23,898 bases of DNA from a virus: the IMG/VR virus record IMGVR_UViG_3300028388_004089, positions 1-23,898 of that record. One strand, given 5' to 3'. Below, piece by piece: positions 5,201 to 19,700 of this stretch. The translations under genes and the position numbers were made by a program. Under the pieces are notes generated by a model. The model was not told the DNA's origin, made no database searches, and was given only the letters and a program-made list of their open reading frames with translations. Positions within the stretch are counted from its first letter, which is position 1. Each line of letters starts with the position of its first letter.

Positions 5201-5376
5201 TTTGGCCCCCGTTTTGTTTTGCCGGTTGCCTTTCGAAAGAAAAAATCGTAAAAAAAAGATTAAAATTTTTCCGGTTTCGGCAAGGTTTCCGGTAAATAGG
5301 CCTGGAGTAATCCGGGCTTTTTTTTTGCAATTTTATTCAATGATAGCGAAATTTTGCAATCTTAAAAAAAACTAGG
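5201..5376. other. Intergenic region upstream of the replication initiator
   Basis: This is the largest intergenic gap outside 639-853. It holds the plus-strand terminator at 5298-5326. It also holds short G/C-rich elements at 5221-5230 (GCCGGTTGCC) and 5271-5292 (CCGGTTTCGG and GGTTTCCGG), and two copies of TTTTGCAAT at 5323-5331 and 5352-5360, 29 bp apart. The rest is A/T-rich runs. These could be initiator- or regulator-binding sites or part of an origin. I could not find a convincing minus-strand promoter for the early operon. Confidence 0.45.
5298..5326 (+). terminator. Strong intrinsic terminator on the plus strand
   Basis: The hairpin AGGCCTGGA-GTAA-TCCGGGCTT has nine pairs (two G-T) closed by a GNRA-type GTAA tetraloop. 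It is followed by an uninterrupted T-run (5318-5326), all on the plus strand. Read on the minus strand the run is upstream and the downstream bases are TATTTACC, so it would terminate minus-strand RNA poorly. No plus-strand gene is visible upstream, which makes the orientation odd. Confidence 0.75.
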
Positions 5377-5956: not shown

Positions 5957-6733
5957 TTAAATTCCGTGTCTACTATTCGAAAAACTTTTTTTCGAGCTCC
6001 CACCGCTAGCCGATGGGGCCACGTCAACGAAAGCCGTGCGAGAGCTCCCATTTAGTGAGCCGCTCCCGCTTGTTAGCGTTACGCTTGTCGGGTCTATAAC
6101 TGAGTCCCAAAAGATAGCTTCATTGATTCGGTAATGAGCGCCGTCGACAAAATTACCATGCCCAAAAACAAGCTCTCCTAAATGGTCCATTTCCCCAGGA
6201 GAGAAAAATAGCCTTGTGTTTGTAGTAGACCCTAAGCTAACGGCGTCCTGATATATCGTATAGGCGCCGGTTGAATTATTATAAGTAAAGGATAGATCAT
6301 ACCATGTTCCAGTCACTATCGAATCGTCGGCGATATAAGTGCCCCCAATTCCTAGCAAGGCCCGGTCATTATACTGATAGGTCTGAAAGCCCCCACTACC
6401 TTGTTTAAAATTGGTTTCAAAAAGAGGCTGAGAAAAAGACGCCGACGGTCTCCCGTATCTCCAGATTTGCTGAGTCGCCGTAGCACTTGAAAACTTTATT
6501 CTCACTAGGACGGAAAAATCGCCAGTTTTTGTGAAATTGTCTCGAGCTGAATAGGAAAGGCCCCCTCGGGTATTCCCCTCCATAACGATCGCTTGCCCAC
6601 CGATTGCCGTGGCGTCGGCTGTGACCGTCGGTATTCCCCCCACACGGCCTGGGTCGAGAACCCCGGCCTCTTTATAGCCTCCGGCAAAACGGGCGCTTAG
6701 AGAGTCGCCTCGAACGGCTAGCGTGACACTCAT
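5957..6733 (-). CDS. LamG/concanavalin-like lectin-fold protein
   Basis: A 258-residue protein with a concanavalin A-like (LamG/Laminin_G_3) jelly-roll over residues about 40-220. Diagnostic strands are GDFSVLVRIKFSS, then TWYDLSFTYNNSTGAYTIYQD, then FSPGEMDHLGELVFGHGNF and the closing INEAIFWDSVIDPTSV. The C-terminus (about 225-258) is Ser/Gly-rich and probably disordered. Such folds in phages bind carbohydrate or act as virion decorations or tail-tip receptor modules. There is no catalytic motif. The start ATG overlaps the stop of the upstream gene (ATGA). Its location after the endolysin, away from the fibres, leaves open whether it is in the virion. Confidence 0.7.
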   Translation of the reverse strand: MSVTLAVRGDSLSARFAGGYKEAGVLDPGRVGGIPTVTADATAIGGQAIVMEGNTRGGLSYSARDNFTKTGDFSVLVRIKFSSATATQQIWRYGRPSASFSQPLFETNFKQGSGGFQTYQYNDRALLGIGGTYIADDSIVTGTWYDLSFTYNNSTGAYTIYQDAVSLGSTTNTRLFFSPGEMDHLGELVFGHGNFVDGAHYRINEAIFWDSVIDPTSVTLTSGSGSLNGSSRTAFVDVAPSASGGSSKKSFSNSRHGI

Positions 6734-6969
6734 TGTTTTAAAGCCTTTCGCTGCTTAAATTCTCGATCATTGATTTTTTTTTCGGCCCTGTCGCATTTGG
6801 CTCTCTCTTTACTCCAGAAATTCAAAAGGTCCTGCGAGTCGCTAGCTAGAGCTAGGTCCTGGGCAATATTGAGAATCATTCTCTTTTCATTGACTTTCTC
6901 TCGGTCTGTGAGGCTTGGGTTTTTGTCGATCTTTTTAAAGGCCCTTTTGAAATAAGTGTTTTTAAACAT
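6730..6969 (-). CDS. Hypothetical 79-aa helical basic protein
   Basis: A small, highly charged, probably all-helical protein (net basic; motifs KRAFKKIDKNPSLTDREKV and ERAKCDRAEKKINDREF). The start ATG follows GGGGGA at the end of the endolysin gene, and the stop overlaps the LamG-like gene start. I see no membrane segment, so it is not an obvious holin. The family is not recognised. Confidence 0.6.
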   Translation of the reverse strand: MFKNTYFKRAFKKIDKNPSLTDREKVNEKRMILNIAQDLALASDSQDLLNFWSKERAKCDRAEKKINDREFKQRKALKQ

Positions 6970-12978: not shown

Positions 12979-15039
12979 TTAACCCCTTAATGAAGTGCCG
13001 AGAGTTTCTCTCTCGATTAGCTTTTCCTCGATTATTTCAAAAGCGTCGTCGCGAAAGCCTATCGTTACCTGCATTTCCTTAGCCCCACCTGGAGCGTTTT
13101 GATTAGGTCCTGAGAGTGAAAACTCGCCTTTTTTGATTCCCTCCGAAAATCTCTCAGGAACGACAATCTCACGGGGAGTAAAGGTCGAGACAAAAGACTC
13201 TCCAAAAGCCGAACCGGAGCCTGAAAACCCCTGGGCGGCCTGAAAAGTCTGGGCCTGGATATTAGCGACCTGGGTTAGCCCCGCCGCAGTCACCGCCGCA
13301 GCAAGTGCCGGCCCGATAATCCCACCTTGAGCTAGAGCTTTCGACGCGCCCTCATAGGTATTGATAAGCGCCTGGGAAATACTGGCCGCTTTCCCCACGT
13401 TAAAAAGAGACTTATTACTCGATCTCGTGAGAGTTTCGGTCGTCGATAGGAACTTATCCTCATTTTGATTAAGGAGTTTTTTCTCGTCCTGGTCTAATTT
13501 AACGACCTTTTTCGTTGTTTCTTTTTTTAACTTTAGGTCCTGGTCTTTAATTGATTTCCGGTCTTTTAGCTGGTCCTGGAGTTTTTTCTTTTCGAGCTCG
13601 GTTTCCTGGGCGTCGGTCTCGGCCTTAAGCTCTAGCTTTTGGTTCTCAAGCTCTCGCATGAGCTCGAGTTTTTCAGCGTTCTCCGTTTCCTGCATTTCGA
13701 GGCGCTTGGCTTTTGCCTCCTCCTCCTTGGCTCTCTCTTCGGCTCGAAATTCCTCCATACGGCGAGAATAACCGTCGGAAAAGCTGCTCGCTGCTCTAGT
13801 CCCTAGGTCCCCCAGGCTTGCAAGGTCTGCAAAACCCTCCTTAATCTGCGAAACGTCAAAAGTCGCTATTCCTTTTAGAATTTTTCCAAAGGCCCTTAGA
13901 TTCGTGCCGGCTTGCTCAACGAAAATTTTAACGACGTCGAAAGCGGCTCCGAAAGCGGCGCTCAATTCATTGCGGAATTTATAGGCAGCAAAACCCGCAG
14001 CGATTAAAGCCGTAATTGCTAGACCGATAGGGTTAGCAAAAAGAAATCGAACACTCGTGCCGGCGAAACGTGCGGCCCCACCAAGTAGGTTTAGAGCCCC
14101 TGCAAAAATAGCACTTTTAGAGGCGGCGAGCGTTGTAATCGTTGAGAATTTAACAATTGCTAGGCCCGTTACCCCTACCACTGTCGTTAGGCCTGCGAAA
14201 GCCGTCGCGACGCCGATAATTACGGCCCCGAATTTAACAATGCGCGGGTTTTCTCTCACGACCTTAATTAAGCCGGTGAGAGCTCCTACCGTGCTTTTAA
14301 CAACAGGGAGAAACTCTTTTCCAAGGTCTGCGGCCAAAAATGAAACATTATCTTTTAAGTTTGAAAACTGCCCGCTCGTTGTTCCCGATTGCTTTTCCAA
14401 GGCATTAAAAGCGATTCCTCCCTCCTTTGAAAGACTAGCGAAAGCTTTTTCAAAAGTCGCAAAATCGACAAGACCCTTAGAAACGAACTCCTTAACCTCA
14501 CTCTCGGCGATGCCTAAGGTTTCGGCAATCGCTGGGCCGATGGGGATAGCTCTCTCCTGGAACTGGAGCAAGCGCTCCCCGGTGAGCTTTCCGGCTGCTG
14601 AAACCTGCCCAAAAATTAGGCCAATATCGTCGATGGGCTTTCCTATCGCTGCGGCGACGTTTCCGATTTGCTCCAGCTTAGGCCTTAGCTCGTCGGCTGA
14701 AAATCCGAAACCCAAAAGCTGCTGGCCGGCTTTCGCGATTGAATCGAACTGGAAATTGGTATTAGTTGAAAAGTCTTTTAGGTCCTCAAGTGCAGCCTGG
14801 GCCTCCTCGGTGTTTCCGATTAAAACCTCGAATTGAGTGTCAATCTGTTCAAATTTTGCCGCCTGAGAAACGGCTAGGCCGATACCCGTTGAAAGGCCCG
14901 CAAAAGCGATCGCCCCACGGGTCGCTACTGTCTGGAGGCTTTGCTCAAGTGAGCGGGTTTCTCGTTTTATCTGATCTAGGGAGCGCTTGAAATTCTCCGC
15001 GTTTCCAGCAATGTCTATTATTACTTTGCTACGGCCCAC
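12979..15039 (-). CDS. Tail tape measure protein
   Basis: A 686-residue protein that sets tail length and is ejected with the DNA. The N-terminus (about 10-250) has the typical tape-measure pattern (LEQSLQTVATRGAIAFAGLS, then TNTNFQFDSIAKAGQQLLGF and QVSAAGKLTGERLLQFQERA). Two strongly hydrophobic segments lie at about 270-297 and 335-354. A long charged coiled coil spans about 425-540, and an Ala/Gln-rich region follows (ISQALINTYEGASKALAQGG, residues about 560-580). The start is GTG 15039 after GAGGGGG. It overlaps the -1-frame extension of the chaperone gene by 11 bp. At the usual 1.5 A per residue, a tail of roughly 100 nm would be expected. Confidence 0.85.
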   Translation of the reverse strand: MGRSKVIIDIAGNAENFKRSLDQIKRETRSLEQSLQTVATRGAIAFAGLSTGIGLAVSQAAKFEQIDTQFEVLIGNTEEAQAALEDLKDFSTNTNFQFDSIAKAGQQLLGFGFSADELRPKLEQIGNVAAAIGKPIDDIGLIFGQVSAAGKLTGERLLQFQERAIPIGPAIAETLGIAESEVKEFVSKGLVDFATFEKAFASLSKEGGIAFNALEKQSGTTSGQFSNLKDNVSFLAADLGKEFLPVVKSTVGALTGLIKVVRENPRIVKFGAVIIGVATAFAGLTTVVGVTGLAIVKFSTITTLAASKSAIFAGALNLLGGAARFAGTSVRFLFANPIGLAITALIAAGFAAYKFRNELSAAFGAAFDVVKIFVEQAGTNLRAFGKILKGIATFDVSQIKEGFADLASLGDLGTRAASSFSDGYSRRMEEFRAEERAKEEEAKAKRLEMQETENAEKLELMRELENQKLELKAETDAQETELEKKKLQDQLKDRKSIKDQDLKLKKETTKKVVKLDQDEKKLLNQNEDKFLSTTETLTRSSNKSLFNVGKAASISQALINTYEGASKALAQGGIIGPALAAAVTAAGLTQVANIQAQTFQAAQGFSGSGSAFGESFVSTFTPREIVVPERFSEGIKKGEFSLSGPNQNAPGGAKEMQVTIGFRDDAFEIIEEKLIERETLGTSLRG

Positions 15040-15762
15040 GCTGCCCCCTCATTTCATTATTAATCTTTTTTAAGTATTGATCGGCCTTGCGCTCCTGCTC
15101 AACCGATAGACTTGAACTCTCGGCGTCGCCTAGCCTTGTCTCAAGTTTGTGGCCTTGGAGTTTTGCTAAAAACTCGTAATGATCTATTTTTGAATCGTTT
15201 ATCTTTTTTGAAAGCTCTACAAGCTGCCTAGTCGTCCTACTTAAAAAGTAATCAATAGACCATCCGTAGGCCTCAAAAAAGACGTGCGCTATCGCCGCCC
15301 AGTCCGTCGTGTCGTTTTCTTTTTGGCTTTCTTTTTGGCCTTGGGACGGGCTGGTTTCAGGTTTTTTTTTACGACTTCATCGATCTTTTCGATTAGGGGC
15401 TCGCTCCCATGCAAAACATAAAGCAAGGCTTTTTGCAGGCCCATTAAAACCTCGACCGTGGAATCTAGACTTTCAGCTAAACTCTCCCAGCTAGGGAAGT
15501 CCTTTTTATGATTATCCTCTAGCAAGTGATGGGTCGTTTTTAACACGGCCTCAAGCCAAGCCGCCTCGTTGTAACCCTCGTCGGATGGGAAAAGCGTTTC
15601 CTCCCAAGCCCTAAGACTAGAAAATTCGCGCTCCACCCAAAGCCTGTCGAGCAAGTTAAATTTTCTAAGCGACAAGGTTAAAACCTCATCGCCCCCGGCT
15701 CTCACTTCTATATCACAAGCCCTTGAATCAAAATCTGAGAGCTTGAAAGTCTTTTTAGACAA
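15029..15762 (-). CDS. Frameshifted tail assembly chaperone fusion (gpGT-like), via -1 slip
   Basis: Slipping back one base at A-AAA-AAC (15367-15361) joins the first 134 residues of the chaperone to a 110-codon open -1 frame. That frame ends at TAG 15031-15029, giving 244 aa in total. The -1 frame has no stop through the whole gap up to the tape measure gene. It encodes a protein-like sequence (AAIAHVFFEAYGWSIDYFLS, then RTTRQLVELSKKINDSKIDH), with FEAYGWSIDYF typical of chaperone T domains. It has no start codon with a ribosome site of its own near its beginning. In lambda, gpGT binds the tape measure protein while gpG coats it; the same division of labour is expected here. Confidence 0.85.
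15289..15762 (-). CDS. Tail assembly chaperone, gpG-like (unshifted product)
   Basis: The 157-residue zero-frame product. The N-terminal 125 residues are a soluble mixed domain (FKLSDFDSRACDIEVRAGG, then LSLRKFNLLDRLWVEREFSS and KDFPSWESLAESLDSTVEVL). The C-terminal 30 residues are strongly basic (KAKKKAKKKTTRRTGRR). The start is TTG 15762, 3 bp after the tail tube stop, with GAGG upstream. Position between the tail tube and the tape measure gene, length, and the frameshift site near the 3' end all match the lambda G gene and its relatives. It is expected to solubilise the tape measure protein during tail assembly. Confidence 0.82.
   Translation of the reverse strand: MSKKTFKLSDFDSRACDIEVRAGGDEVLTLSLRKFNLLDRLWVEREFSSLRAWEETLFPSDEGYNEAAWLEAVLKTTHHLLEDNHKKDFPSWESLAESLDSTVEVLMGLQKALLYVLHGSEPLIEKIDEVVKKNLKPARPKAKKKAKKKTTRRTGRR
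15361..15367 (-). promoter_or_regulatory. Programmed -1 frameshift slippery site A-AAA-AAC
   Basis: On the minus strand the gene reads GTA AAA AAA AAC CTG, a run of nine A's followed by C. The heptamer A-AAA-AAC fits the X-XXY-YYZ rule exactly in the zero frame, so both tRNAs can re-pair after a one-base backward slip. It lies 23 codons before the zero-frame stop. I did not identify a clear downstream stimulatory hairpin by eye. Confidence 0.83.
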
Positions 15763-15765
15763 GAC

Positions 15766-16638
15766 CTAAACCTCGTCGAAAGCTGTAATTTTCATTACGG
15801 CGTCCTGATCGTCGTCGCGTAGTAGCTTCATGGTTAAGTCTGAAATCATCCAAGTTTTTTCCTGCATTGGAAAAGGCATACCAGACCCCACACAATTAAA
15901 AGCTTGAATCTGAAAGATCTCTCCGTTGCTACGCTTTTGAGCAACGAGATAGGCTCCAAAGCTAGGAAAGCTCGCCGTTTCGCTACCGATAACAATTTCA
16001 GACCCCCCACTGTGAGCCGGCAAAACATCAAAAACCGCCGTGTCGTCGGTTGTAAGAGCAACGGTTCCAGACCCTCCTGTAATTGTTAAACCGTAATCTG
16101 CCACGTCTACAGTCCCGCCCGTACTTGGAACGGTAATTGCGCTCTCGATTAGGAGAAGGTTATCGGAATAGGCGCCCGCAGTTCCTCGGTTGAAATCGAC
16201 GTCGGTCATTAGGTACAGAGAGATTTCTGCGGCTCCCGTGGCTTTTATAACGTATCGACCGAATTTCGCGTCGGCCTCGTCGCCTGAAGTAATCCCCACG
16301 CTAGCGATTCCAGTCGTCGCGTCGCTGACTGAAGTGCCTTTATAATTAGCAAAATTACGGGTTTCGCCGTTAGCTGCGGCGGCAATTGACGTAACGGACC
16401 CACCGAGAAAAAGCTCCATTAAAAAATCGGGATAGCTTTTTACATTCATTGTCGCGGTCGCCCCAATCTGGGTCTGCTCGGAGGCGTAGGCGAATTTCGA
16501 GGAGCCGCCGAAAAGGTCCTCGGTCTCCCCAGTTAGCTCCATATTACCCCCACCCAAGACTTTTAAAATCCCGTAGGGCAGGCCCGTGTCGCGATTATAA
16601 GGCGTGAAACTGTGAATCCCGAATACATTTCTTCTCAT
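15766..16638 (-). CDS. Major tail tube protein
   Basis: A 290-residue, Gly/Ala/Thr-rich, beta-dominated protein in the gpV position between the gpU-like gene and the tail chaperone. The N-terminal part (about 1-70) reads FGIHSFTPYNRDTGLPYGIL, then GEMELTGETEDLFGGSSKF-like strands, typical of tail tube openings. The middle (about 145-215) contains an Ig-like or inserted beta domain (IESAITVPSTGGTVDVADYG, then LTITGGSGTVALTTDD). The end FKIQ-like strands lead into DDDQDAVMKITAFDEV. The start ATG follows AAAAAAGGGG. An abundant structural protein is expected. The fold call rests on gene order plus composition; the family was not searched. Confidence 0.75.
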   Translation of the reverse strand: MRRNVFGIHSFTPYNRDTGLPYGILKVLGGGNMELTGETEDLFGGSSKFAYASEQTQIGATATMNVKSYPDFLMELFLGGSVTSIAAAANGETRNFANYKGTSVSDATTGIASVGITSGDEADAKFGRYVIKATGAAEISLYLMTDVDFNRGTAGAYSDNLLLIESAITVPSTGGTVDVADYGLTITGGSGTVALTTDDTAVFDVLPAHSGGSEIVIGSETASFPSFGAYLVAQKRSNGEIFQIQAFNCVGSGMPFPMQEKTWMISDLTMKLLRDDDQDAVMKITAFDEV

Positions 16639-17822: not shown

Positions 17823-19700
17823 TTAGGAACCGGCGTTGTAAGCCATTGATCGGTAATTGATCGCCTTGGCTGCAAAATCCAAGTAGGCTCGAATTTTAAC
17901 CCCTAGAACGTCAAAAGTGTTTTCGCTCTCTACCTGCACTCCGCGAGCTCCCTCAAGATAGGCGTATTCTACGTTCTCAATCTGATTAGGATTAGCGATC
18001 AGGTAATAGTCGCCGGCGCCTACTAGCGAACTAACTAGCAATTGGAACTCATTTCCAAAAACATTATAACCGCCGTTGGCAGTTTGCGCGGCCAAGAGTT
18101 TTTTCGCCGCGACCTCGTTATCGGCTCCCACTAGCAAAAATGCAGGCATTAGCTCCATTTCGCGCCCCTGAGTGTCGGTCTGCTCTCTCATTAGCTGCTT
18201 AAGCTCCGCTAAAGTCGTTTCAGAAAGCGCTCCAGCCGTCCCTAGGTTGGAGTGACTTGAGTGGAATAAAGCCGTCCCGTCGCCCATTGTAGGATTGTCG
18301 ATGATTTGGTTTTTCAGGGCGACCGTGTTCTCAAGGTGAGCCGCTGCTCGCCCAAAACTCATAGCAACTTTTCCTAGTGCGCCGAGATCGTCGTTAATAA
18401 TATTTTGACGGGTGACTGAAATACCTTTCGCGTAGGTAGCGAGCTGATAGACTTCTTTCGAATCGCCCATAGTCCCGTACTTAACTTCGGCGCCCTCGCC
18501 TAGCTGCTCAAGCGCTGGGGCCTCGTCTAGGTGAGCAATAGAAGTTTGTTTAAAGTCGCGGAGCGTGGTTTCACTCATAAAGGAGCGCCACACCTGAGGG
18601 ACTGACTCATAGCCGCGCTGTAATCGCTTGGAGGCTACGTTTTCAAGGATATTAGTAAAATCGCTCGTAGAGTGAAAAGCTCGTTTGATAATCTCATGCT
18701 TTGAAACCCCTCGAACGTCAAAACCGGCGTCGGCGACTAGCTCCTTGCAGATTTCCATAGCTGACAAGTGCAGATACTGATTCCCTTGAATATCGCCCTC
18801 GTGTTTTGGGTCTTGTCGGTGAATAATTGCATCGGTGATTAGCCCGCGCTTTTTGTCTGTCTGGTCTTTTGTAACCTCAACGGATTCGACCGTGGCCTTA
18901 TCAGGCTGGGGAGCTTTCGTGTCTTTTTCGGCCCATTTCTCCTGAATAATCTCTAGAGACTTCGCATAGGAGTGACCTTGGTCGATAATCTCCTCGGCTA
19001 GATCGTCGCCTAGTCCGGCTTGTCGACAAGCTCGAATGATTTTCGCCGCTTTTTGTCGCTCTTGAGCCTTAGCGTTTTCGAGCTCGGTTTTTGTGTTTTC
19101 TTCTTTTGCCTGTGGCATAGCTAACCCCTTTTCTTTTATTTCTATTTTAACTTCGTTTTTCTCAGTTTTAATTTCTGATTTAATCTGCGCACTCGAATCG
19201 GCTGGAACGGTAACAAGTGAAATCTCGTGAGGCTCCCACCGAACGGCCCTTAGGGTCCTTATTCTGTCGTCGTCGCTGGAAATATCCTCATAGTTATAAA
19301 CGCGATACCCGATTGAGGCATTTTTTATAATCCCGTCTTTCACGTCCTGAAAAAACGGCTCCACGTCGTCGCGCCGTGAAAATCTCACTCGACCCCTAAG
19401 CTCGTCGCCTGAAAGCCAAACGTCCTCAACGACGCCAAGCTGTTCTTTCAAACCACTATAGGCCTTGTGAGAATTTAAAAGGGGAGCTCCCTTTTTCATT
19501 CTTTCTAGGTCGACGTGCTCCGGGTCCATTGAAAGAGACTCTTTAAACTCCTCAAAACCCTTGTCTGTAAAGCCGATCATTCGCACCGGCTTTGAAGTCG
19601 TGAAAATTAGCTCGACCGTGCGATTTTCCTCATGCAATGTTTCGGGCTTAAATCGCATCGAGTCGAAATGCTTTTCTATTTTGGTTTTTCTAGTAGGCAT
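17823..19700 (-). CDS. Prohead protease / scaffold / major capsid fusion protein
   Basis: A 625-residue three-part protein. Residues about 25-170 are an HK97-type prohead protease: PLLNSHKA with His78, IIKNASIGYRVYNYE with Ser129, and RWEPHEISLVTVPAD with Glu159. Residues about 195-285 are a charged helical scaffold-like segment. Residues about 290-625 are a major capsid protein of the Mu gpT-like/HK97-fold type, with ASKRLQRGYESVPQVWRSFM, then GTALFHSSHSNLGTAGALSE, LMPAFLLVGADNEVAAKKL and GVKIRAYLDFAAKAINYRS near the end. Fusions of this kind are known in databases. The start ATG follows GGGAGGG. An internal ATG at 19118 may also be used. Self-cleavage is expected to release the mature coat subunit. 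Confidence 0.85.
   Translation of the reverse strand: MPTRKTKIEKHFDSMRFKPETLHEENRTVELIFTTSKPVRMIGFTDKGFEEFKESLSMDPEHVDLERMKKGAPLLNSHKAYSGLKEQLGVVEDVWLSGDELRGRVRFSRRDDVEPFFQDVKDGIIKNASIGYRVYNYEDISSDDDRIRTLRAVRWEPHEISLVTVPADSSAQIKSEIKTEKNEVKIEIKEKGLAMPQAKEENTKTELENAKAQERQKAAKIIRACRQAGLGDDLAEEIIDQGHSYAKSLEIIQEKWAEKDTKAPQPDKATVESVEVTKDQTDKKRGLITDAIIHRQDPKHEGDIQGNQYLHLSAMEICKELVADAGFDVRGVSKHEIIKRAFHSTSDFTNILENVASKRLQRGYESVPQVWRSFMSETTLRDFKQTSIAHLDEAPALEQLGEGAEVKYGTMGDSKEVYQLATYAKGISVTRQNIINDDLGALGKVAMSFGRAAAHLENTVALKNQIIDNPTMGDGTALFHSSHSNLGTAGALSETTLAELKQLMREQTDTQGREMELMPAFLLVGADNEVAAKKLLAAQTANGGYNVFGNEFQLLVSSLVGAGDYYLIANPNQIENVEYAYLEGARGVQVESENTFDVLGVKIRAYLDFAAKAINYRSMAYNAGS
19116..19128 (-). promoter_or_regulatory. 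Candidate internal start for scaffold-capsid product
   Basis: Within the protease-capsid gene, codon 195 is ATG (19118-19116), preceded by AAAAGGGG with a 6-bp spacer, the same kind of ribosome site used by many genes in this window. It lies exactly at the junction after the protease domain and would give a 431-residue scaffold-plus-capsid protein in the same frame. Lambda uses an analogous in-frame internal start (Nu3 within C). Confidence 0.55.

Follow-up and report, generated by a model that had tools for sequence, protein, structure and literature searches.

The window, a stretch of 23,898 nucleotides from the IMG/VR virus record IMGVR_UViG_3300028388_004089, contained lambda/Mu-like head genes (terminase, portal and a protease-capsid fusion) together with a tail terminator and a tape measure protein of the TMP_3 family. 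The 625-aa ORF fusing protease and major capsid protein (Peptidase_S78 plus Phage_capsid_4) located at 17823-19700 on the minus strand, and was 62% identical to IMG/VR contig L002. Between the major tail protein and the tape measure we found a further ORF, overlapped by a startless -1 ORF that ends at the tape measure. The features of this locus are as follows.

15766-16638: tail tube gene, adjoining the G-like ORF on the side away from the tape measure.
15289-15762, minus strand: putative G-like tail assembly chaperone ORF, 157 aa, TTG start with GAGG 8 nt upstream, stop TAG at 15289.
15362-15370, minus strand: putative nine-A slip site, with A9 or A10 at the equivalent place in 25/27 loci of the family.
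15364-15370, minus strand: in-phase heptamer A_AAA_AAA, the second of two.
15361-15367, minus strand: in-phase heptamer A_AAA_AAC.
15292-15361, minus strand: zero-frame tail past the A run, basic, about 23 aa, unconserved in relatives (0 to 75 codons).
15299-15354, minus strand: possible 9-bp stem CCAGcCCGTC / GACGGaCTGG starting 7 nt past the run, weak and unconserved in the family.
15029-15361, minus strand: -1 frame extension with a T-like domain, 110 aa, ending in TAG (family alignment; phrog_33493 in relatives).
12979-15039, minus strand: tape measure protein (PF20155 TMP_3), GTG start at 15039, preceded within a few bases by its own GAGGGGG.

Codons 131-134 of the G-like ORF read GTA AAA AAA AAC and span the A9 run (15370-15362), the C being at 15361. 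A slippery X_XXY_YYZ heptamer is present in the zero frame within the overlap, and these codons confirmed the original prediction that A-AAA-AAC at 15367-15361 lies in the correct frame. Through translation, we also verified that the -1 frame stays open from 15361 to TAG 15029, through 110 codons (PETSP...RGP). Its claimed 11-bp overlap with the tape measure start (GTG 15039) was found as described, and the gap of some 250 bp between the listed ORFs, exactly 249 bp, is indeed occupied, by a -1 ORF conserved in 26 other loci. At this base composition, the probability that 110 codons of the -1 frame are open by chance is about 0.001; the decisive support for the extension is its conservation in relatives, beyond this open-frame chance.

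In some phages two tail chaperones are encoded as separate proteins, and the extension could likewise be a separate small protein made from its own start, as the original prediction had considered. In the window, no ATG, GTG or TTG is found in the -1 frame before codon 104 of 110, so an independent start is not credible. Most relatives, too, have no start codon ahead of the conserved W..YGW motif. The separate protein was rejected on these absent start codons and is very improbable.

The family was reached through tape measure relatives and then through a T-domain alignment search. Searches with the G-like protein alone, the T of the window alone, or the next tail protein revealed no close relatives, and alignment A1 was dropped as a scan query for being too diverse. 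The tape measure relatives share the layout of a G-like ORF and an overlapping -1 ORF abutting the tape measure. At 26 other loci the -1 ORF at the equivalent place encodes a recognisable domain, with the family motif W..IFDLLSSEYGWTTEYI..T..E in an alignment of 25 rows. Y, T and I were invariant in this alignment, and W, D, G and R near-invariant. The differences at codon positions 1/2/3 of the T domain were 0.51/0.39/0.65, fewest at the second and most at the third, in an alignment that was protein-guided and so favours such a pattern. Sixteen of the 25 family members matched phrog_33493, 'tail assembly chaperone' (best E 1.1e-6). Since the relatives carry the same -1 domain with these matches, the proposed T-domain-like extension is borne out. 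The T of the window is the most diverged of the set on the T-domain tree; this copy matched neither phrog_33493 nor any other Pfam or PHROG family, giving only a weak chance match to DUF2333, and Foldseek with its model returned nothing useful.

The relatives also bear on whether an error of sequencing or assembly in the homopolymer split one gene, the true run being A10. Homopolymers are error-prone, and one more A would join the frames. However, more than 20 independent contigs have A9 or A10 with a -1 T frame, among them A10 cases likewise out of frame, and zero-frame stops follow close behind the run. Sequencing error was rejected as extremely improbable and is, for practical purposes, refuted by the relatives.

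The AlphaFold model of the G-like protein had a mean pLDDT of 83, and its best named Foldseek matches were tail chaperones: protein G of Xylella phage Sano (prob 0.99, E about 0.02) and a protein of Gordonia phage Sixama (prob 0.98, E about 0.02). A 'pre-tape measure frameshift protein G' was among the most similar annotated tail chaperones. Against the PDB, 3klu was matched with prob 0.60 and HK97 2ob9 weakly. With E-values near 0.02 the resemblance of the model to tail chaperones is suggestive, and the protein gave no Pfam or PHROG family match. Taken together, the same -1 T ORF in relatives, its missing start, the PHROG matches and the G model indicate that the locus is almost certainly a lambda-type G/GT tail assembly chaperone pair. 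G/GT frameshifting is a textbook example of conserved recoding by the ribosome, and the original prediction described the locus as a lambda-style programmed -1 frameshift. The G/GT organisation stood, through the T family and the gene order, while for the mechanism the ribosome is just one of two live candidates.

Among the 27 distinct loci (window included), the run was A9 in 19, A10 in six and A6 in one (L008), and one (L033) had the heptamer GGGAAAG without a run; A7 or A8 was found in the overlap at none of the 27. A homopolymer of at least nine A's at the frame junction, as looked for in transcriptional slippage, is present in the window and in 25/27 loci overall. Outside these overlaps, the same DNA (185 kb) contained 219 runs of A6, 84 of A7, 15 of A8, two of A9 and none of A10. 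Both background A9 runs lie in the window, on the minus strand: one at 6774-6782 in a 79-aa ORF (6730-6969; GAA AAA AAA ATC) with no frame junction seen, and one at 5318-5326 outside the listed ORFs. The replacement of the A run by the lambda heptamer at L033:2992-2998, within a T-family member, is a natural switch between kinds of slip site.

Relative to the G codons, the A9 run falls in phases 0/1/2 at 5/6/8 loci. On the T-domain tree the codon phase changed at least 11 times, a rough count as many branches are poorly supported, and the length switched between 9 and 10 five times. Conservation of run length independently of codon phase, which transcriptional slippage predicts, was therefore found. 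It seems from these sequences that the run length is conserved rather than the codon position, with the run sliding along the codons at 9-10 A. When synonymous codons were resampled with an in-frame A_AAA_AA heptamer required, a run of at least nine arose in about 58% of cases per locus. The joint probability of at least nine A's in all 25 loci was about 1e-7, a product that takes the loci as independent; it is conservative in conditioning on the lysines, and relatedness among the loci makes it too small.

In vivo, bacterial RNA polymerase slips efficiently on runs of 9 A or T, and the RNA-DNA hybrid is 9-10 bp (PMC5009743, PMC1088944). Runs of 9-10 A in any codon phase therefore favour polymerase slippage, matching the hybrid length and the known slippage threshold. 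The original prediction had mentioned polymerase slippage in a side remark, and this proved the better lead: 9-10 A are conserved in all phases, although a single phase with an A6-A7 heptamer would be enough.

A serious rival to polymerase slippage, possible though short of probable, is ribosomal -1 frameshifting alone, lambda-like, by tandem tRNA slippage on A_AAA_AAC and/or A_AAA_AAA. Surplus A's would then just add overlapping heptamers and raise the efficiency. The in-phase heptamers, present as A_AAA_AAN in every A9/A10 relative as well as in the window, are consistent with the ribosome acting alone, and ribosomal frameshifting is conserved in tail chaperones (PMC5009743), with 6-7% measured for two HK97-like cases (PMC3711429). 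The T frame is always -1 in the family, as ribosomal -1 shifting predicts, and L033 uses the classical lambda heptamer GGGAAAG; both observations speak for the ribosome and count against the polymerase. The uniform direction would also be explicable by a single ancestor or by an insertion bias. Against ribosomes alone, an in-frame A_AAA_AAN needs just six to eight A's, by phase, yet seven or eight were found in 0/25 runs, and the length is held while the phase moves. Stimulators also failed to appear: across the family we found no conserved upstream Shine-Dalgarno-like element and no conserved downstream structure. Folding downstream of the run in the window gave z -0.16 over 91 nt, no better than shuffled sequence, and z -1.8 over 80 nt, with a family mean of -0.27.

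Neighbouring families with plain heptamers have A6/A7, which again does not fit the ribosome-only explanation of the long runs. We examined further eight tail-chaperone regions of tape-measure relatives outside the T family, and a clear site was revealed in seven (L011-L016 and L020), as plain A6/A7 or GGGAAA(C/G) heptamers in exact phase. The very distant L018 and L019 contained no clear slip site. In Roseobacter phage CRP-406, an unannotated -1 ORF with an A7C heptamer lies between CRP406_31 and the tape measure (L020:6183-6365), and is likely a missed GT fusion.

Further points count against the polymerase. The other A9 within the small ORF of the window (6774-6782) indicates that A9 is not strictly avoided. 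Lambda needs a G:GT ratio of about 30:1 (PMC5009743); by analogy, this would be less GT than polymerase slippage would give at the reported efficiency of the A11 run in Citrobacter tssM1, which works by added A's at about 20-25% (PMC4256274). In G062, the relative-bearing genome examined in depth, only tRNA-Lys with the UUU anticodon was found among the tRNA genes read, a reading that leaves out about eight long tRNA genes. With the UUU type, ribosomes there should be able to slip on AAA/AAG. A Thermus-like tRNA-Lys pair in the host, considered as a reason for polymerase slippage, was dropped on this reading of the UUU type only. A strict-pattern tRNA search detected CUU-type tRNA-Lys in 12/59 genomes of the phylum, with patterns uninformative for the UUU type.

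Weighing these points, we consider the frame switch very probably a slip on the A run, and slightly favour RNA polymerase slippage as a major contributor. Our leading reading, in which the G/GT pair arises wholly or in part through transcriptional slippage, is given a probability of about 0.58. Most transcripts would give the short G-like protein, and a fraction would be translated into a G-T fusion, with its C-terminal domain encoded in the -1 frame and its stop shortly after the start of the tape measure gene. RNA polymerase would slip on the run and insert an extra A (A9 to A10), bringing normal translation into the T frame (...VKKK-PETSP...), and ribosomes slipping by -1 on A_AAA_AAN may contribute besides the polymerase. 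The predicted junction is VKKN-PETSP for a slip on A_AAA_AAC, and VKKK-PETSP for an added A or a ribosomal slip on the upstream heptamer. By analogy with lambda, we infer that the fusion would recruit tail tube protein onto the tape measure.

More than two products were also proposed originally, through +1 or -2 events. These are possible, but the corresponding frame in the window meets TGA at 15359-15357, one codon past the run. Judging from the reading frames, any such product in the window would merely be the chaperone minus its basic 23-residue tail. The family median to the first +1-frame stop was 5 codons, shorter than background though not convincingly so (p 0.014 and 0.08 against two backgrounds), and the extra products across the family would be chaperones with altered short tails.

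A scan of 84,980 bacterial and archaeal genomes revealed one confirmed match, in a Bdellovibrionales genome (L043). The T domain was found in 3/369 genomes of the same phylum, all with A9 or A10. This Bdellovibrionota hosting concerns the relatives in genomes and not the window's own host. A Silvanigrella phage, related through its capsid, had a seemingly contractile-type tail module, and no A9 run was found in the stretch read. From the runs and their conservation, we might speculate, at about even odds, that in a family of tailed phages, at least some of them found in Bdellovibrionota genomes, the G:GT ratio is set by RNA polymerase slipping on the length-conserved A9/A10 run and not by ribosomal frameshifting. 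The second chaperone of these phages can escape gene callers, and the natural series A9, A10, A6 and GGGAAAG in the family is material for testing the switch.

The layout of G and GT is already known. In the literature searched, with most subscription journals outside it, we found no description of a phage tail chaperone made by polymerase slippage, nor of a tail-chaperone family with an A9/A10 run of conserved length. Lambda gpG/gpGT (and HK97 etc.) has the same order as the window, namely tail tube, G, -1 T and tape measure, and in lambda, too, the heptamer is in phase and a startless T abuts the tape measure. However, lambda uses G_GGA_AAG, whereas the family of the window has a length-conserved A9/A10 run in any codon phase; and unlike lambda, the G and T of the window had no Pfam match, and its copy no PHROG match.

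In Cellulophaga phage phi39:1, a chaperone-like ORF (gp19) ends on A8 (L100:2061-2068) upstream of a related tape measure, as here, and the gp20 frame is open upstream of its annotated start. Relative to gp19, the downstream ORF gp20 occupies the +1 frame, whereas that of the window family is in -1; in this tape-measure relative the A8 run is a candidate site for slippage, either +1 or by loss of one A.

Citrobacter rodentium tssM1 (A11) and bacterial IS elements (A9) resemble our proposal in that A's added to the mRNA open a longer C-terminal extension, but they are host or transposon genes and not phage tail assembly genes. Thermus dnaX uses nine A's for slippage (PMC5009743, PMC1088944). 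Like the window, T. thermophilus dnaX has exactly nine A's, no conserved stimulator and two proteins with a common N-terminus; slippage there gives a shorter product, whereas in the window, known from sequence alone, it would give a longer one. If our leading reading is true, two different machines would serve one assembly step at homologous positions, like dnaX in E. coli and Thermus.
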